A DNA stretch of 26,354 nt from a virus. The stretch lies in the IMG/VR virus record IMGVR_UViG_3300028297_000015, positions 1 to 26,354 of that record. One strand, written 5' to 3'. Within the stretch, counting starts at the first letter, position 1. Every line of letters starts with the position of its first letter. Position numbers and translations under genes: made by a program. This document shows, in pieces, positions 443 to 20,889 of this stretch. The notes beneath the pieces are model-generated. The model ran no database searches. It worked only from the letters and a program-made list of their open reading frames with translations, and was not told the origin of the DNA.

Positions 443-3400
443 TTAGTATGTATTTCTTACTATGTTAACCCATTCGTATGTTGACGCGCCTGTTTGCATA
501 CACATGTCTGCGTAGCTTGCGTCTTCTGCTGTTACTTCTATTGCTGATACATTGTCTATATCAAAATCAAAATTTGCATAACTCCCGTCCCTTTTAATTC
601 TTAAGACTGCACTGCCAACTGCACCCGTATAAATTGAGTACGAACCGACACCTTGCGAAATGTTTACCGAGTAAACATCGGTACCCGCTAAAATTTGTAT
701 TCTACCTGCAACATATCTTTTCACATCTAAAGTAATTAGATATTTTTTAGTAGCGGTTAAAGCATCTTGTTGTAAATAACTATTTGTATTAGAGCCGCCA
801 TCATCAAAAGTTGCAACACCGCTAGCTATAGCAACATCACCTACTTTAGTCCAATTACTATCGGCAGCAAAATCTCCGTTCGTTATAATATTTGTGCCAT
901 TAACCTCTACATACTCCGTATCAGTTCTGTAGCGCATTGTACCTACTTTATCTGCTGAGGCGGCAGCTGTGTCATTAGACATCTGAATACCGCCCGCAAC
1001 GTGTAGCATTGACTTAGGGACAGTTGTTCCTATGCCAACTTTACTTGTGTAATCAAAATGAGCAATAATTCCACCACCATCACCTAATATTTGTACATTG
1101 TCATCACCTTTAATTTTTAAGTTTAAACCGTCAGAGAAAACATATGATTGAGCACCTGTTCCTGAAGATGCAGATGAATCTCTAAACCAAATTCTTTTTC
1201 CATCAGCTTGTGTTATATCCCCTGCAAAATTTGTGTTTGCCCCAATTTGAGTTGAATTTAGTACTCCTCCAGCATAAAAATGGTTTTCATTATTTGCAGC
1301 GGAATACATAACAAAATCTTCATTAGCATCAAGTGATAAATACCCTTGCTGTGTGCTTGAAGTACCATCGTTGTTGTAAAAACTAAGTTTGCCGCTTCCA
1401 GCGTTTGTCTTTTTAATTCTTACTTCTGCTGTTGCATTTTCACCAACTACTATTTTAGTAAGTGCATTTATATCATCAGTAGAAGTAACTTCACTTGCAA
1501 AAGTTGCGTTATGGTTAGCGTCTATAACTATACTATTGCCAGCCACCGTAGCGACTCTACCAATAGCAAAATTAGTTCCCTCTGCTACTAAGTAACCATT
1601 TGTATCATTATCTCCTATTTGTACAAAAGCTCTGTTTGTCCTAGACATAAACTTAGCCACAGCACTTGCACCACCTTCGTGATTAACAACTAATTGTGCA
1701 GTAGCCCCAGATGTTAAAGCCCCAGCAGTAACATCCCCTGCAAAAGTTGCATCACCATCACCTTGTAGTTGTATATTAGTAGTACCTGCTGCGTTCCTTA
1801 CAACTATTGCATTATCACCATCTGTTTGTGATAAGATGCCATAGTCGGTCGTGCCGTCTTTGTCTACTTTTACACCCCAATCACTACCGTCGTTAGTTAC
1901 TAAGATACCAGCATCACCAGTACGATTACCTGTGTAGTCAACTGTTAAACCAGTGCTAGTAATATCACCTGCAAAAGTTGCGTTGCCAGCGGTTGAAATT
2001 TCCATTTTAACATTAGCCCCAGAATAAGCCGTTCCATAAGCTAATGAGTAATTGGCAGATTGATTTAAACCTGCCCACCAATAGTTACTACCTGTTGATT
2101 GATTACTGTATTTAACTGCTACTTCTTCAGCAGTGGTTGTATCGGTAGACTCTAATGTTAAATATACATCTGCAGTTTTTTGTATTGCAACATCCCCTGC
2201 AAAAGTTGCACCGCCTGCTGTATTTAAACCTACTCCTGTAGAATTAACATCTATATAATAAGCGCTGTTTGTAGCTGAATAAATAGTATTAGCATAAATA
2301 CTACCTGCAAAAGTTGCGTTACCATTATGAGCTAAAGTTAAAGCAGAGGATGCTTGTCCTGTAGCAAAGTTTATATTAGATGAGCCAGCTGTAGCCGTAT
2401 TATTTATATAGCTCCAGTTGTTATTGCTACCATCTTTATCGTTTTTAAGAGCTATCCCTTTTCCTGGTAAGTTTAATGCTGCATTAGTACCCGCATATAC
2501 ACCTGTACTGCCCACTCCTACAATACCAGAAAAAGTTGCGTCTGCACCACCAGTTTGAGAAAGTCCAGCGTCTACTGTAACTGCGCCATTAAAATAACTT
2601 GTACCGTCATTATAAAAGTCATATGACGCATGCACTCCCGCGCTTTTTACAGCAAACTTACCAGTAGCGTTGCCCGAGGCCATTGCAACATTGCCTGCAA
2701 AAGTTGCGTTTTGAGAATTATCAATAGACAATGCTACAGTGCCGTTAGCACTATTAAGATGTGTTGCTATTTCAAACGTAGGTTGCCCATTATTACCCAG
2801 CCTAGCTCCTCTTAAGGATATACCGTAATTATCAACAATAGAAGTTCCTAAAAATATAGAAGATTTGCCCGTTGTGTCTGTGGTGGCGGCTGGTTTTAAT
2901 CTTATAGCAGAAGTAGAACCAATGTTAGTTGTAATTTGGTTTTGGGCAGATGTTATTTGCCCTGCAACTGTAAGATTATTTGTTAAATCCCAAGTGTCAT
3001 CTGCATCATCAAATATTAAACTTGCTTGTGTAACACCATCGCCTCTGTATACACTTATACCAGATGTAGCTGCTGTCGCAGTATCTGGTGTTCCCTGTGT
3101 GGTATTAAGCTGTAGTATATTATCTTCTACCTCTACAGTCTGAGTGTTTAATGTAGTGGTTGTACCATTAACAATTAGGTTGCCAGACGCAGTTATATTC
3201 CTTACGCTTAAATCTCCACTTGCTGTTATATCGTTGCTTGCGACTAAATTTCCCGTTACAGTAACACCTGTGCTTGTGGTTTCAAACTTTTTAGAGTTGT
3301 TATAAAATAATTCTACATTACCACCGTTGTTTGTATTAATGGTTTGACCGCTACCATCTGCATTCTGTAAGCGTAAATTGTTTGCTCTTATATAAAGGTC

Positions 3401-6400
3401 TCCAGTTCCTACTTCTCTTATATAACTATTACTTCCATCGTGGTAGATTTGAAGGTCTTCTCCAGTTCCAAAAAGCAATCTACTGCTGTCAGGAAATTTA
3501 GTATAAAGATTTGTTCCATCCGCTGAACCACCATCTAAATAAAAATATGTAGTAGTACCACCAGAACCATCATCACTTTTAAATACTATGTCCTTATCGT
3601 TAGCGTTATTTTGTATGATTAAGTCGCCAGTATCATTAGATATTGAAGTATTAGTACCATCATGGAAAAATCCTGCGTCACCATTAGAACCTACTTGTAA
3701 TGCTACACTATCATCAGCTCTGAAATTTCTTGATACTCTAGTTATAGCACCACTACCATCTAAATAAAAATATGTAGCATACCCACCAGAACCATCATCT
3801 GTTCTAAATACTATATCTTTATCATCTGCTTTATTGGTAAAATATAAATCACCAGTACTATTTTCAATAACAGAATCTGTAGCGTTGTGGTAGATTTGAA
3901 GGTCGTTCCCGTTACCGAATAAAGATTTAGTATTATCGGTGTGTTCCACGTTAGCGGTGGCAACAGAAACACCGTCTGTAACCCAGCCACCCGTTATGGT
4001 AACGCCCGTGCTTGTGGTTTCAAACTTTTTAGAGCCACCATAATATAACTCTACGCTGTTAGATTGATTCATGTTGACTAATAAATTGTCAACTGCATCT
4101 TTAAAAATTATATCATTACCGCCCTTAATAATTAAATCGCCAGTTCCCGTATCATTTATATAACTGTTAGAACCATCATGGTAGATTTTAAGGTCATTAC
4201 CACTACCTATTCTTAATTCTACGTTATCAGATAACTTAACGTTTTTAGAAAATAAATTCGCTTCATTAGCGCCATCCAATTTAAAATATGTAGCAATTCC
4301 ACCGCTACCGTCATCACCCCAAAATATAATATCTTTATCGTCAGCATAGTTTACAATATTTAAATTACCTGTTTGATTTTCTATAAAACTATCTGTTGCA
4401 TTATGTTTTAGAGTTAAATCATTTCCTGTTCCTATTTTTAAAATTTTATCATCTACTAAACTTACATCCCCTGCAAAAGTTGAATTACCACTCTCAATAG
4501 ATATAGCGGCAGTTGAACCGTTACCGTCTGCGTAAATACTAGTTACTGTACCATTATCATGGAAAGCACCTCTAAAAGTACCCGATGTATTATGTAAATA
4601 ATAACCACCACCAGCAGTATCTAATCTAACTTGGCTACCAGCTACGTGTAGTTTTTGAGTAGGACTAGTAGTCCCGATACCTACGTTGCCCCCGTTTAGA
4701 TAAGAGTTTCCGTTAGTGTTTAATTTAACTTTATTATTATTGCTTGTATCGTATCCTAGATACTGAGCGTCTCCATTACTAGTGTTATATAGTATATGTA
4801 ATCTGTTTGCATCATTTCCTACATTAGCCTTCCCTACTATAACACCTTGACCAGCACTTGTAAAAAACGCATGTTGCGCTTGCCAAGTATTCTGCGCTTG
4901 AGTTCCATAACCACTAATAAAAACGTCCCTGTTTGAGGTGGAATAAACTTGAAGATTAGCCCCAGGACTAGTAGTACCGATACCTAGCTTTCCGTCAGAC
5001 TTCATAGTTATTTTAGTGCTGGCTCCATAGCCAAACGCTAAATCTGTTGTACCATAAGCAGATATATTAAAATAATCACCACCTGCAAAGTCTCCGTTTG
5101 ACCCATCTAACCAAATAGTTGCACCATCACTATACTCATTAAATGCAATAGCGGAGCTTCCGTCTTTTACTCTAAAATCACCACTTACATCTAGTTTGTA
5201 ACCAGGAGCAGTAGTACCAATACCAACGTTGCCTGTAGAACGCTGAAGTGTTAAAGTATTGTAGTAAGACCCTGCACCTCCATACTCTCTGTCAATCGCA
5301 AGATTATCACCAGTATCAGTACTTCTAAATACCCAGCTTACATTACCAGCATCGCCTTCAATAGCAAAAAGACCTGCCCCAGCTGTGTCGCTAGATGTTC
5401 CTATAATGTGTAGTTTCTTTTCAGGAGCAGTAGTGCCGATACCAACGTTGCCATCTTTGGTAATACGCATTCTTTCTGTATTACCGCCTTCGCTAACGCC
5501 AAACCAAATATATGGAGTACTGCCAGTACCGCCTTTCGCAATTAGTCCAGTGCTTCTGTTGTCCCCGTGAAGCAGTAAACCGTTTTGATAAGCAGCTCCC
5601 TGCTGATACTGAAGCCCTACAAATCTATCGTTACCCCAAGTTGTAACAATATCTCCATCAACATCAAGTTTTTCTCTTGGACTCGTAGTCCCGATACCTA
5701 CGTTGCCAGCTGCTGTTACTATCATTCTTGTTACAGAACCAATGCCAGCGCCACCACCTGTTCCTCCCGATAATTTAAGTAGATACTTATCAGATGCGTT
5801 TTCTGTAGAATCTACAGCTATACCATATCCGCCACCGTGAGACATATAAACATTTACATCCTCGTCAGCTGTGGCATTCTGGAAAGAATAACCCCACCCT
5901 GACTCTGCGGACAATCCGTGAATGTGATAGGCTGGATTAGTTGTTCCAATGCCCACTCTTCCAGCAGAGGTAATACGCATACGTTCAGTACCTCCGTTTG
6001 TTCGGAAATACAAATGCTTATCAGTACTTGCGTAAATATCAGCTAATGCTGTTCCTTCAGAATAAAACTCAAGAGAAGCTCCGTGTCCGCTAGCAAATGT
6101 TTGACCTTCTATTCGTACTTCACCCCATCCATTATTTCCCTTTACGTGAAGCTCTCTTGCTGGACTAGTAGTTCCAATACCAACCTGTCCACTGTCTTGT
6201 ATTGTCAGTAATGCGTGACTTAGTTGGGCAACATCTGGGTTAAAAGTTGTGTCTGGTTTATTAGCTACAATCCATTTATTACTGCTTACATTATACGGCA
6301 CACCAGTAAACCAAGACTCATTTGCTTCTGTGTTGTAGTGGTATAAACCTTGACCCCGAGAAACCGCTTGTCCTGCTTGTAGTAAGATTGAGCCAGGTGC

Positions 6401-6790
6401 ATATCCTGTTGCAGTGGTATGACTAAACTTGGCAACATAATCATTAGTAGTACTAGCAACGTGTAAGCTAGCTCCAGGACTCGTAGTTCCAATACCAACG
6501 TTGCTCTCTAGTATATATGAGCTATTTCCAGCTGCGGATAACCTAACTTTATTTACACCAGAATTAGCCCTTAAAACTAAGCTTCCGTGACTACTTTCTT
6601 GCCCTATTGCAACTACGTTAACGGTATTCCCTGAGTGCGTTAATGTAATCTGGTCAGCTGTGCTGCCTGTAGATTTTACATTAAGTCTAGCCCCAGGACT
6701 AGTAGTACCTATTCCTACTCTATCATTTGCTGCATCTACATATAGAACACCAGAGTCTGCATTTACACTATTGAGAAACTTTATTGCCAT
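443..6790 (-). CDS. giant repetitive tail fibre protein (2115 aa)
   Basis: A very long fibre protein, expected at the virion tip and involved in host-surface contact. The N-terminus MAIKFLNSVN matches that of the upstream 379-aa protein (MAIKYLNSIN), suggesting a common anchor. Three repeat classes follow in order: nine VGIGTTSPxxxLHV-type motifs in about the first third; then five copies of a unit like LxIYHDGSNSYI...TGDLxI, several with a DKDIxFxxDDGSGG segment (about residues 790-1130); then about nine NATFAGDV-type motifs (about 1300-1850). A tenth GIGTT motif lies near the end. The last ~150 residues (from NGDFAADSNWTKVG) look like a carbohydrate-binding-module-type beta sandwich. I see no S74 autoprotease at the C-terminus. 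A TAnnTTTG box lies 18 nt before the ATG. Confidence 0.85.
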   Translation of the reverse strand: MAIKFLNSVNADSGVLYVDAANDRVGIGTTSPGARLNVKSTGSTADQITLTHSGNTVNVVAIGQESSHGSLVLRANSGVNKVRLSAAGNSSYILESNVGIGTTSPGASLHVASTTNDYVAKFSHTTATGYAPGSILLQAGQAVSRGQGLYHYNTEANESWFTGVPYNVSSNKWIVANKPDTTFNPDVAQLSHALLTIQDSGQVGIGTTSPARELHVKGNNGWGEVRIEGQTFASGHGASLEFYSEGTALADIYASTDKHLYFRTNGGTERMRITSAGRVGIGTTNPAYHIHGLSAESGWGYSFQNATADEDVNVYMSHGGGYGIAVDSTENASDKYLLKLSGGTGGGAGIGSVTRMIVTAAGNVGIGTTSPREKLDVDGDIVTTWGNDRFVGLQYQQGAAYQNGLLLHGDNRSTGLIAKGGTGSTPYIWFGVSEGGNTERMRITKDGNVGIGTTAPEKKLHIIGTSSDTAGAGLFAIEGDAGNVSWVFRSTDTGDNLAIDREYGGAGSYYNTLTLQRSTGNVGIGTTAPGYKLDVSGDFRVKDGSSAIAFNEYSDGATIWLDGSNGDFAGGDYFNISAYGTTDLAFGYGASTKITMKSDGKLGIGTTSPGANLQVYSTSNRDVFISGYGTQAQNTWQAQHAFFTSAGQGVIVGKANVGNDANRLHILYNTSNGDAQYLGYDTSNNNKVKLNTNGNSYLNGGNVGIGTTSPTQKLHVAGSQVRLDTAGGGYYLHNTSGTFRGAFHDNGTVTSIYADGNGSTAAISIESGNSTFAGDVSLVDDKILKIGTGNDLTLKHNATDSFIENQTGNLNIVNYADDKDIIFWGDDGSGGIATYFKLDGANEANLFSKNVKLSDNVELRIGSGNDLKIYHDGSNSYINDTGTGDLIIKGGNDIIFKDAVDNLLVNMNQSNSVELYYGGSKKFETTSTGVTITGGWVTDGVSVATANVEHTDNTKSLFGNGNDLQIYHNATDSVIENSTGDLYFTNKADDKDIVFRTDDGSGGYATYFYLDGSGAITRVSRNFRADDSVALQVGSNGDAGFFHDGTNTSISNDTGDLIIQNNANDKDIVFKSDDGSGGTTTYFYLDGGSADGTNLYTKFPDSSRLLFGTGEDLQIYHDGSNSYIREVGTGDLYIRANNLRLQNADGSGQTINTNNGGNVELFYNNSKKFETTSTGVTVTGNLVASNDITASGDLSVRNITASGNLIVNGTTTTLNTQTVEVEDNILQLNTTQGTPDTATAATSGISVYRGDGVTQASLIFDDADDTWDLTNNLTVAGQITSAQNQITTNIGSTSAIRLKPAATTDTTGKSSIFLGTSIVDNYGISLRGARLGNNGQPTFEIATHLNSANGTVALSIDNSQNATFAGNVAMASGNATGKFAVKSAGVHASYDFYNDGTSYFNGAVTVDAGLSQTGGADATFSGIVGVGSTGVYAGTNAALNLPGKGIALKNDKDGSNNNWSYINNTATAGSSNINFATGQASSALTLAHNGNATFAGSIYANTIYSATNSAYYIDVNSTGVGLNTAGGATFAGDVAIQKTADVYLTLESTDTTTAEEVAVKYSNQSTGSNYWWAGLNQSANYSLAYGTAYSGANVKMEISTAGNATFAGDITSTGLTVDYTGNRTGDAGILVTNDGSDWGVKVDKDGTTDYGILSQTDGDNAIVVRNAAGTTNIQLQGDGDATFAGDVTAGALTSGATAQLVVNHEGGASAVAKFMSRTNRAFVQIGDNDTNGYLVAEGTNFAIGRVATVAGNSIVIDANHNATFASEVTSTDDINALTKIVVGENATAEVRIKKTNAGSGKLSFYNNDGTSSTQQGYLSLDANEDFVMYSAANNENHFYAGGVLNSTQIGANTNFAGDITQADGKRIWFRDSSASSGTGAQSYVFSDGLNLKIKGDDNVQILGDGGGIIAHFDYTSKVGIGTTVPKSMLHVAGGIQMSNDTAAASADKVGTMRYRTDTEYVEVNGTNIITNGDFAADSNWTKVGDVAIASGVATFDDGGSNTNSYLQQDALTATKKYLITLDVKRYVAGRIQILAGTDVYSVNISQGVGSYSIYTGAVGSAVLRIKRDGSYANFDFDIDNVSAIEVTAEDASYADMCMQTGASTYEWVNIVRNTY

Positions 6791-16316: not shown

Positions 16317-16345
16317 CAAATATACTGATTATCAAGACACTACAA
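16317..16345 (-). promoter_or_regulatory. leftward promoter at the divergence region
   Basis: Minus strand: TTG (16345-16343), 18 nt, TATATTTG (16324-16317), with the ATG of the next gene at 16310. Both boxes and spacing match the Flavobacterium consensus TTG-N17-23-TAnnTTTG. The start site would fall at or very near the ATG. Confidence 0.6.
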
Positions 16346-16372
16346 CGAGACACTTAAACCATCACTTTACTA

Positions 16373-16403
16373 TTGACATTCTCATAAAAATGTTGTAACT
16401 TCG
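16373..16403 (+). promoter_or_regulatory. possible rightward promoter
   Basis: TTG (16373-16375, within TTGACA), 20 nt, TAACTTCG (16396-16403), one mismatch to TAnnTTTG. It faces into the C-rich non-coding region, so it would make a long untranslated leader or a non-coding RNA. Confidence 0.35.
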
Positions 16404-16480
16404 CTTTGAAGAAAACATCTCTTGCATACACAGTAAGTAGACATCATACCTACACACCCACACTTAAACACTCAACATCA

Positions 16481-16538
16481 AGCAGTATTGAATACGGGCG
16501 CATTGTGTTCAATTCTAAGCTATCCTTTTAGTACTGCT
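16481..16538 (+). other. nested inverted repeat (foldable RNA/DNA)
   Basis: Outer arms AGCAGTA/TACTGCT (7 bp) enclose inner arms ATTGAA (16487-16492) and TTCAAT (16508-16513); the two arm sets share base 16487. It lies downstream of the possible promoter at 16373, so it could fold in a transcript. Confidence 0.4.
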
Positions 16539-17107
16539 CACACTACCCTCCAGGATCTCACACCCCCCACTTAAAGTATCACTTTAACTAAACACCCGCA
16601 TCCCAATGATAGTACGTGTTTTAGGGGTAAAAAAAATATGAGTCCTACGTACCTGGGGGATTATAGTACAATAACACCGGGCGCGCACGCAACCCGAAAC
16701 GGATATTTCGCCCCAACCCCCTCATTTCCAGGCTTTTACGTCCAATTATTTCAAGTTTTACTTCACACCGATCGGGCTATCTATATGATACACACAACGA
16801 TAGACCACCCCATCTCAACAACCACTTCAACTCGGTAAGGGTAACCACACTCGGAGTGAGTCCTTTAGAGAGTGACACCAATCCACCCCACACACCTCCC
16901 ATAGCCAATACCTATCACCTATTCACCAACGATGGATACGCTCTATAAGTCTCATATGGTACACGAATCACCATACAATCCACACTAGGTATTTACGCTC
17001 AAATGTGCTATTGAAGTGAAATAAACTTGAATGCACTTAAAACGTTGAAAACCAGGATTTTAGTGTTTTTGAGCCTTGCACTGTGGTATCGTATATGTCA
17101 ACCATGG

Positions 17108-17140
17108 TTTGCAAATGTGGTGTCCGTACCATTACCTTTG
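17108..17140 (+). promoter_or_regulatory. main rightward early promoter
   Basis: TTTG (17108-17111), 21 nt, TACCTTTG (17133-17140): a full match to the Bacteroidota/Flavobacterium promoter consensus with ideal spacing. Transcription would start near 17146, giving a roughly 340-nt leader before the first cassette gene at 17489. It is the best promoter seen on the plus strand and is suitably placed to drive the small-gene array. Confidence 0.65.
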
Positions 17141-17144
17141 TTGA

Positions 17145-17174
17145 GTTCTTCGGAACGACACACGTTCTTTTTTT
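17145..17174 (+). terminator. attenuator-like structure: two competing hairpins plus T7
   Basis: GAACG-ACACA-CGTTC (17153-17167) followed by seven T (17168-17174) is a short intrinsic terminator. The same GAAC (17153-17156) can alternatively pair with GTTC (17145-17148) across a TTCG tetraloop. The two folds exclude each other and lie just after the predicted start site. Confidence 0.5.
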
Positions 17175-17184
17175 CTTGGTAAAT

Positions 17185-17208
17185 GCAACGCACCCCTTCG
17201 GGGGTTGC
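17185..17208 (+). other. TTCG-loop hairpin in the early leader
   Basis: GCAA, a 4-nt bulge CGCA, CCCC-TTCG-GGGG, TTGC. A stable GC hairpin in the leader downstream of the attenuator, of the same type as the junction hairpins further right but not followed by TTAACC. Confidence 0.45.
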
Positions 17209-17216
17209 TCTTATGG

Positions 17217-17232
17217 GTGGTACGTGTACCAC
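17217..17232. promoter_or_regulatory. 16-nt perfect inverted repeat, operator-like
   Basis: GTGGTAC-GT-GTACCAC: 7-bp arms with a 2-nt centre. As DNA it suits a dimeric regulator, downstream of the early promoter; as RNA the 2-nt loop would be too tight, so a DNA operator is more likely. Confidence 0.4.
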
Positions 17233-17435
17233 ATGTTATGCTATGAAAGTTGAGGTTGAAGAAGTAGTAAACCCTAGTAATATGTCAACGCCATGAGAAG
17301 TTTGCGCCACGCCCCAAGGTTAACTGATGACCGCATTTGCGGACTCTTTAGTGAGTGGCTTGAAGGGGAAGTTAACGTGGTCGTTTGAGGGTATTCTAGT
17401 AGAGCCTACATTAAACAAATTAGCCGAAACCAACC

Positions 17436-17471
17436 AACGCTCACCTAATCCGTGGGCGTTTGGTTTTAACC
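17436..17471 (+). promoter_or_regulatory. cassette junction 1: hairpin + TTAACC
   Basis: AACGCTCAC (17436-17444) pairs over 9 bp (one G-U) with GTGGGCGTT (17452-17460), then GGTT and TTAACC at 17466; ATG at 17489. This junction lies inside an open frame that continues from 17327. Confidence 0.6.
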
Positions 17472-17748: not shown

Positions 17749-17773
17749 CCACCTTCGGGTGGGGGTATTAACC
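17749..17773 (+). promoter_or_regulatory. cassette junction 2: hairpin + TTAACC
   Basis: CCACC-TTCG-GGTGG (17749-17762), spacer, TTAACC at 17768; ATG at 17788. The 24 nt from CTAAACC through GGTGGG are identical in junction 3. Confidence 0.7.
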
Positions 17774-17987: not shown

Positions 17988-18010
17988 CCACCTTCGGGTG
18001 GGTCTTAACC
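17988..18010 (+). promoter_or_regulatory. cassette junction 3: hairpin + TTAACC
   Basis: CCACC-TTCG-GGTGG (17988-18001), TC, TTAACC at 18005; ATG at 18026. Near-exact copy of junction 2. Confidence 0.7.
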
Positions 18011-18359: not shown

Positions 18360-18395
18360 CACCGCACCGATCTTCGGATAGCGGTGGTTTTAACC
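18360..18395 (+). promoter_or_regulatory. cassette junction 4: hairpin + TTAACC
   Basis: CACCGC (18360-18365) pairs with GCGGTG (18381-18386), with a possible inner CCGA/TCGG; TTAACC at 18390; ATG at 18411. Confidence 0.65.
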
Positions 18396-18740: not shown

Positions 18741-18757
18741 CGACTTCGGTCTTAACC
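18729..18757 (+). promoter_or_regulatory. cassette junction 5: hairpin + TTAACC
   Basis: GAGGTCG (18729-18735) pairs with CGACTTC (18741-18747, one G-U); the stop codon TAG of the previous gene is in the 5-nt loop. TTAACC at 18752; ATG at 18773. Confidence 0.68.
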
Positions 18758-18921: not shown

Positions 18922-18945
18922 CCCGCTCCTGGCGGGGTCTTAACC
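18922..18945 (+). promoter_or_regulatory. cassette junction 6: hairpin + TTAACC
   Basis: CCCGC-TCCTG-GCGGG (18922-18936), GTC, TTAACC at 18940; ATG at 18960. Confidence 0.68.
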
Positions 18946-19202: not shown

Positions 19203-19215
19203 CGGTGTCTTAACC
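19186..19215 (+). promoter_or_regulatory. cassette junction 7: hairpin + TTAACC
   Basis: ACCGCT (19186-19191) pairs with AGCGGT (19201-19206); the stop codon of the previous gene overlaps the 3' arm. TTAACC at 19210; ATG at 19229. Confidence 0.68.
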
Positions 19216-19512: not shown

Positions 19513-19538
19513 CCCTCATATAGAGGGTGGTCTTAACC
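19513..19538 (+). promoter_or_regulatory. cassette junction 8: hairpin + TTAACC
   Basis: CCCTC-ATATA-GAGGG (19513-19527), TTAACC at 19533; ATG at 19552. Confidence 0.66.
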
Positions 19539-19818: not shown

Positions 19819-19834
19819 CACCTCGGTCTTAACC
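19809..19834 (+). promoter_or_regulatory. cassette junction 9: hairpin + TTAACC
   Basis: AGGTGC-ATA-GCACCT (19809-19823), with the stop TAG of the previous gene spanning loop and arm; TTAACC at 19829; ATG at 19848. Confidence 0.7.
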
Positions 19835-19994: not shown

Positions 19995-20019
19995 ATGCGT
20001 TGCATCTATGGTATTAACC
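19989..20019 (+). promoter_or_regulatory. cassette junction 10: hairpin + TTAACC
   Basis: ATAGATGC-GTT-GCATCTAT (19991-20009), extendable by two pairs to 19989-20011; the previous stop codon lies in the 5' arm. TTAACC at 20014; ATG at 20034. Confidence 0.7.
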
Positions 20020-20033
20020 AAAATATATGTCTT

Positions 20034-20237
20034 ATGACAACTAATCAAGATTACTTATTTATGAACGAAAACATAGGTAAGAAGTGCGTTATTACTAATA
20101 ACATAGGAACAATTAGCGACCATATTGGCTACAAAGGGCAAACCTTAACTATAGAGTCCGTTTCCGATGATGGCTTCTATATATTAAATGGAGTCTATTG
20201 TTGTGACCATAACGAAGTAAATATTATTAACCTTTAA
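20034..20237 (+). CDS. unknown small beta-barrel-like protein (67 aa)
   Basis: I place the start at the ATG 20 nt after the start of TTAACC (MTTNQDYLFMNENIGKKCVI); an ATG ten codons later (MNENIGKK) is also possible. The rest reads as five short beta strands (KKCVITNNIG, YKGQTLTIESV, GFYILNGVYC, NEVNIINL), like an SH3/KOW-type small barrel. Family not assigned. Unlike the others, it is not followed by a hairpin: its end runs into a TTAACC box that serves the next gene. Confidence 0.65.
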   Translation: MTTNQDYLFMNENIGKKCVITNNIGTISDHIGYKGQTLTIESVSDDGFYILNGVYCCDHNEVNIINL

Positions 20238-20539: not shown

Positions 20540-20569
20540 AATGGGCACTCCGCCTATTCGGTTTTAACC
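20540..20569 (+). promoter_or_regulatory. cassette junction 11: hairpin + TTAACC
   Basis: AATGGGC-ACTCC-GCCTATT (20540-20558, one G-U), CGGTT, TTAACC at 20564; ATG at 20583. Confidence 0.66.
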
Positions 20570-20758: not shown

Positions 20759-20785
20759 GAGGGGCATCGCTCCTCGGTATTAACC
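20759..20785 (+). promoter_or_regulatory. cassette junction 12: hairpin + TTAACC before a tRNA-like gene
   Basis: GAGGGGC-ATC-GCTCCTC (20759-20775, one G-U), GGTA, TTAACC at 20780, AAAA, then the tRNA-like gene from 20790. The box is identical to those before proteins. Confidence 0.7.
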
Positions 20786-20789
20786 AAAA

Positions 20790-20889
20790 GGACAAGTGCT
20801 ACCTTGGTGGTCGGAGTGCTTAGTATTTAGCAATACGTTAGTTAACATCTCATGGATGTAAAACAGAGGTTCAAATCCTCGCTTGTCCA
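20790..20889 (+). tRNA. tRNA-like gene, CAU anticodon likely, expanded 5' half
   Basis: GGACAAG (20790-20796) pairs perfectly over 7 bp with CTTGTCC (20882-20888), followed by discriminator A. The T arm is AGAGG-TTCAAAT-CCTCG with a canonical loop (one end mismatch). An anticodon arm ACAT-CTCATGG-ATGT (20845-20859) has U33 and anticodon CAT (Met, or Ile if the C is modified), and the 4-nt variable region is normal. However, 54 nt instead of about 26 lie before the anticodon stem. The extra ~28 nt can form its own hairpin (GTATT-TAGC-AATAC). Alternatively it is a class II tRNA with ACATC/GATGT as the variable arm, but then no good 7-nt anticodon loop is found. CCA is not encoded. Confidence 0.6.

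Follow-up and report, generated by a model that had tools for sequence, protein, structure and literature searches.

The window analysed here, the entire 26,354-base IMG/VR record, carries 12 units of the form hairpin-GGUH-UUAACC at successive gene junctions between 17.46 and 20.79 kb. They are headed by a leader which, together with the first unit, makes a strong case for a hammerhead ribozyme, apparently a variant of type I. Homology to hammerheads, the single core per array and the conservation of the target sequences, which co-vary with the arms of the core, can be read directly from the sequences compared. The predicted best explanation, and one we consider fairly probable, is that this one leader hammerhead cuts the core-less units of the array, the last of which precedes a tRNA-like RNA (Table 1). 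Portal and terminase of the window match PHROG head-and-packaging families, and the nearest relatives of the portal (∼29-31% identity) belong to phages of Flavobacterium and Cellulophaga; phages of this kind apparently infect Flavobacteriia. Two further features of the window were recorded, a 2115-aa protein rich in GIGTTSP-type repeats (443-6790), probably a tail fibre, and, immediately before the ribozyme leader, a region of ∼1 kb (16320-17300) that separates divergent gene blocks, has no convincing genes and may hold promoters or an origin.

Table 1. Elements of the leader, the array and the tRNA-like RNA in the window (↓, predicted cleavage position).
Feature	Position	Strand	Remarks
P1 5′ strands, GCCAC and CCCC	17306-17315	+	pair with 17377-17381 and 17365-17368, stem II loop
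GGUUAA	17318-17323	+	5′ strand of stem I, leader ribozyme
CUGAUGA, catalytic core	17324-17330	+	sole CUGANGA on + in the array, right after GGTTAA
Two small inserted hairpins	17331-17356	+	missing from L072
Stem II with long structured loop	17357-17425	+	GGCU 17357-17360/AGCC 17422-17425; in L072 GGAU/AUCC
GAA-ACC	17426-17431	+	second segment of the core, with the arm (15.1-15.3) complementary to the GGU of each unit
First unit, GGUU↓UUAACC	17462-17471	+	cis site of the leader hammerhead; model match 17318-17471
Core-less unit, GGUA↓UUAACC	17764-17773	+	
Core-less unit, GGUC↓UUAACC	18001-18010	+	
Core-less unit, GGUU↓UUAACC	18386-18395	+	
Core-less unit, GGUC↓UUAACC	18748-18757	+	
Core-less unit, GGUC↓UUAACC	18936-18945	+	
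Core-less unit, GGUGUC↓UUAACC	19204-19215	+	exception at 16.3
Core-less unit, GGUC↓UUAACC	19529-19538	+	
Core-less unit, GGUC↓UUAACC	19825-19834	+	
Core-less unit, GGUA↓UUAACC	20010-20019	+	
Decayed unit	20223-20232	+	box remains; hairpin and GGU (GGUH) lost; intact in L211 and L213
Core-less unit, GGUU↓UUAACC	20560-20569	+	
Unit hairpin, GAGGGGC-AUC-GCUCCUC	20759-20775	+	7 bp including one G-U; from sequence and fold
GGUA (GGTA)	20776-20779	+	positions 16.3-16.1 and H17; cut predicted after A20779
UUAACC (TTAACC) box	20780-20785	+	3′ strand of hammerhead stem I, substrate arm
tRNA-like RNA	20790-20889	+	class II-like with long variable arm; anticodon arm non-canonical

The window contains 10 copies of the string GGTNTTAACCAANA, all on the plus strand and between 17.7 and 20.8 kb, where 0.02 copies would be expected from shuffling. 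Folding of the 34 nt that precede each unit gave a mean energy of −9.9 kcal/mol, compared with −4.0 kcal/mol in control windows. Nearly all units retain a hairpin, which differs from one unit to the next, the bases of GGT-H-TTAACC are constant, and the boxes lie 19-24 nt upstream of an ATG. Inside a GGUH array, the unit at 19204-19215 reads like the targets of the second phage group described below. As the repeat precedes most array genes, the tRNA-like gene included, the box could be a phage promoter with the +1 just downstream. However, sigma-70-like sites were not enriched (9 found versus 15.1 expected), hairpin and NUH grammar suit a ribozyme, and the compact homologues of the units are hammerheads, which makes a promoter extremely unlikely. 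Among the units, only the first loosely fits an intrinsic terminator, on the plus strand. A repeated stem-loop with a box in front of many genes is also seen in the start-associated sequences of cluster K mycobacteriophages and in the PeSL cassettes of T4-like phages, neither of which is known to be part of a ribozyme.

Both core segments of the hammerhead, CUGAUGA and GAAA (17426-17429), are present in the leader and, but for the variable N, invariant in five leaders; stems I, II and III pair in all five, and the cleavage triplet at the first unit is GUU, of the NUH type. A covariance model derived from the compact copies described below matched the leader and first unit as one element (23.9 bits, E 0.0018); the model also recognized this element in L211, L213, L439 and L072 (in the latter with an E of 1.5e-5). 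Stem II is not joined directly to A9, as 26 nt are inserted after CUGAUGA (1 nt in L072), which is why we regard the leader as a variant and not as a canonical hammerhead; compact relatives with one extra U do exist. P1 would be a pseudoknot that ties stem I to stem II and holds both side by side. All helices, P1 included, pair in each of the five leaders. Double changes among the leaders are few but consistent, both occurring in L072 (stem II, GGCU/AGCC to GGAU/AUCC; P1, CCCC/GGGG to CCGC/GCGG), and 31 of 500 shuffles reached this level. Downstream, between 17331 and 20900, CUGANGA is absent from the plus strand, and the covariance model found no core at any other unit of the window, even with its filters off, a setting that yielded only a shorter, local match for the leader. 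The notion that each unit is a complete cis hammerhead was dropped because the cores are lacking.

What a complete unit looks like is illustrated by L072, which at one unit (4354-4404) has a compact textbook hammerhead (GGTTAA-CTGACGA-GTCC/GGAC-GAAA-stem III-GTC↓TTAACC). A scan of viral contigs yielded 116 stretches with a compact core of this type, and gene junctions of other phages were found to harbour ∼200 compact cis hammerheads in all, identical in stem I (GGUUAA/UUAACC) and in the box. In an alignment of 35 compact copies, 99.1% of the cells were paired, and 106 compensatory cells were counted in stems II and III, a level reached in none of 500 shuffles; stem I is constant in this alignment, having been fixed by the search pattern, and carries no evidence itself. 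At the gathering cut-off, Rfam gave no match in the window and missed the compact hammerheads at the ten loci tested, where a tRNA was the sole match. Also below the Rfam cut-offs are rows of four to eight complete hammerheads at successive gene junctions in L420, L361/L100 and L069. One compact hammerhead lies on the minus strand of a cultured phage, Flavobacterium phage vB_FspP_elemoA_5-9B (MT497111; L673 1670-1727), at a gene junction and unannotated in the record (40.1 bits, E 1.1e-7, model R1). No convincing blastn match to the leader, the core of the second group or a compact hammerhead was obtained among isolated phages, and a pattern scan of bacterial genomes returned 14 scattered matches. 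Leaders with a long stem II were confined to the clade of the window in an exact-letter scan; two other matches from scanning for a long stem II proved to be a hammerhead plus a chance GAAACC.

The boxes follow the grammar of a hammerhead substrate. Cleavage triplets of hammerhead ribozymes obey the NUH rule. In the relatives L213, L211, L072 and L439, TTAACC is preceded by C, A or T, and G is absent from this position in all 46 array boxes and in all 214 compact ones. That the box is a hammerhead cleavage site is predicted with high confidence. GGU is kept in 43 of the 46 array units though their hairpins turn over. Position 16.3 is G in the same proportion of array boxes, compared with 104 of 217 compact ones (Fisher 2e-9, phylogeny ignored), and this G is also found where a unit lacks an ACC partner in cis. 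Across four phages, the box has four single-base variants, each of them UUAAUC, which keeps a G-U pair; two of the four are orthologues of the unit before the tRNA-like RNA and sit at the tRNA/ncRNA junction in L211 and in L213. GGU retention and the UUAAUC variants argue for continuing selection.

The targets also vary with the arm of the core. Among 672 fetched loci, only two phage groups had at least two core-less hairpin boxes, each with a core in front; one further locus, L027, was rejected as a chance occurrence. In the group of the window, the arm is ACC and the boxes read GGU-H, whereas in the second group (seven distinct contigs: L475, L528, L252/L294/L504, L509, L515, L247 and L257) the arm is ACACC, again with one core, and the core-less boxes read GGUGU-C (23 of 23). 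The core is always the 5′-most unit in the arrays. The second group is apparently unrelated to that of the window, whose terminase (TerL) found no match in the fetched second-group records, although these are fragments and the result is thus no proof of independence. The difference between GGUGUC and GGUH could in part be due to descent within each group. Ordered by TerL, the phages form a series: L069 (69% identical) has cores at all units, L072 (82%) has a leader, one compact hammerhead and core-less units, and the nearest relatives have only a leader and core-less units.

The core-less units might instead be dead remnants of cis hammerheads, of which UUAACCAAA survives as a 5′-UTR or translation signal (presuming a host that does not use Shine-Dalgarno sequences), with only the first unit still cleaving itself. 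Cis and core-less units alike have a conserved A-rich stretch following the box, the distance of 19-24 nt from the box to the ATG would fit such a signal, and the leader alone would account for the conservation of the core. However, dead remnants would hardly retain GGUH, 5′ of the cut, in nearly all units while hairpins were replaced, nor would a translation signal be expected before a non-coding RNA, as in the window and L211, or GGUGUC versus GGUH track the arm of the core; we consider this reading improbable. A second option, that the leader loop GGUUAA serves as an antisense regulator of all boxes and nothing is cut, draws on the six-base complementarity between the leader and every box and on the leader being first in the array, yet explains neither the conservation of GGU and the exclusion of G at H nor why all five leaders contain a CUGAYGA...GAAA core, and is very unlikely.

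We infer that the array is transcribed as a single RNA, that this RNA is indeed cleaved and that the leader acts at a distance. The 5′ leader (17306-17431) would fold into a type I hammerhead core, the arms GGUUAA and ACC of which would pair with GGUH↓UUAACC at the first and every later unit, and the core would cut after H, most likely on the same transcript. Calculated duplexes in trans are weak (stem I, −4.0 kcal/mol; ACC/GGU, −0.9 kcal/mol), and because these pairing energies are small, cleavage of separate molecules would be inefficient and cutting within a transcript is likelier. The products would be monocistronic mRNAs that start with UUAACC and have leaders of ∼19-24 nt, not of 10-13 nt as proposed in the first-pass annotation, and the new ends would be 5′-OH rather than triphosphate. 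Counting against remote cleavage are the 12 array boxes in which H is U (none among the compact ones), the decayed unit of the window and a possible occupancy of the GGU in cis: approximately three quarters of the clade-1 units have an upstream ACC that could pair with it. The first unit is, moreover, predicted to compete for the ACC arm of the leader, which is mostly paired in the window and mostly free in L211, L213 and L072. Processing of the transcript could also be the task of a host or phage protein endonuclease that recognizes the hairpin and GGUHUUAACC, for which the retention of a hairpin at nearly every unit would speak. No candidate enzyme was identified, though, the motif is exactly the substrate strand of a hammerhead, and relatives have full hammerheads at the same places, leaving such an enzyme highly improbable. 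On balance, we lean towards a natural hammerhead that would cut a dozen junctions of its own operon remotely, with arms and targets co-evolving in two phage groups and the tRNA-like RNA as one of the products.

The unit ahead of the tRNA-like RNA is the last of the array in the window, and its counterparts before the tRNA-like RNA or ncRNA are last in L211 and L213. As stated in the first-pass annotation, it consists of a hairpin and TTAACC, and a tRNA-like RNA follows 10 nt from the start of the box (AAAA, then GGACAAG at 20790), where there is no open reading frame with a start codon. The reasoning that a box ahead of a non-coding RNA argues against a signal purely for ribosome binding holds as well. 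Its GGUA↓UUAACC is complementary to ACC and GGUUAA of the leader, and the unit has neither a CUGANGA nor a covariance-model match of its own; judged by these features, it would be the substrate half of a hammerhead and not a ribozyme, with the hairpin a putative remnant of stem III. Of the two processes envisaged earlier for this junction, RNA processing is thus upheld and transcription initiation is not, given the hammerhead anatomy of the box. The cut, formerly placed just downstream of the box, is predicted to fall instead between A20779 and U20780, where the box begins. The 5′ end of the tRNA-like RNA would accordingly not coincide with the +1 assumed for it: the RNA would begin at U20780, 10 nt upstream of its acceptor stem, and this leader would be left for another nuclease, such as RNase P.

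The gene itself has a 7-bp acceptor stem, a T arm with a UUCAAAU loop and the long variable arm, which bears out the earlier description in part; it scored 23.8 bits with the Rfam tRNA model, below the cut-off of 29 bits (E 0.0094 for 361 bases), and ARAGORN, including its intron and relaxed options, reported no credible gene there. L211 carries a homologue, the anticodon arm of which differs from that in the window. As scores are below the cut-offs and the anticodon arm is not the same in the two phages, "tRNA-like" is the right word. At the corresponding place, L213 (8478-8625) has a degenerate unit (GGTTTTAATC), and the structured non-coding sequence behind that unit is a different one, containing an 8-bp hairpin (GGATGGGG...CCCCATCC). 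A cut at the last unit would separate the mRNAs of the small genes from the structured RNA and from the replication genes that follow.

Hammerheads have been found in clusters flanking prophage genes, where tandem cis sites were shown to cleave, and their proposed role is to divide long phage RNAs into mRNAs of gene length (Perreault et al, 2011; PMC3088659). Those clusters resemble the present arrays in their location at phage gene junctions but have a core at each site, whereas an array here combines a single core with up to 14 core-less sites; the stem I family described here escapes the Rfam cut-offs. A natural discontinuous hammerhead acts in cis in mammalian CLEC2 mRNAs (Martick, 2008, described in PMC6155905); there, too, a long insertion separates core and substrate strands, but the ribozyme is of type III with a single cis site, whereas the leader would be of type I and serve many sites up to 3.3 kb away. 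Trans-acting hammerheads are laboratory constructs (review PMC6155905), and these share with the arrays the short arms flanking NUH and one core for separate substrates; they are artificial, whereas the leader is natural, phage-encoded and known from its sequence alone. In the literature searched, mostly outside subscription journals, no natural trans-acting hammerhead was found. Theta (HDV-like) ribozymes beside phage tRNAs, for which processing of the 3′ trailer was proposed (PMC10879173), likewise link a small ribozyme to phage tRNA processing, but with an HDV fold and on the 3′ side, compared with a hammerhead-type site on the 5′ side; no HDV-type Rfam match was obtained in the region, even below the cut-off.

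Phage hammerheads that separate genes in cis are thus already known, and what would be new is one core serving many core-less sites. If true, an RNA enzyme would act as the processing endonuclease of an operon, and the phages compared would represent an evolutionary series from cis cleavage (L069) via a mixed state (L072) to one core per array (the window). This would explain how polycistronic RNA is converted into gene-sized mRNAs in these phages, which apparently infect Flavobacteriia.
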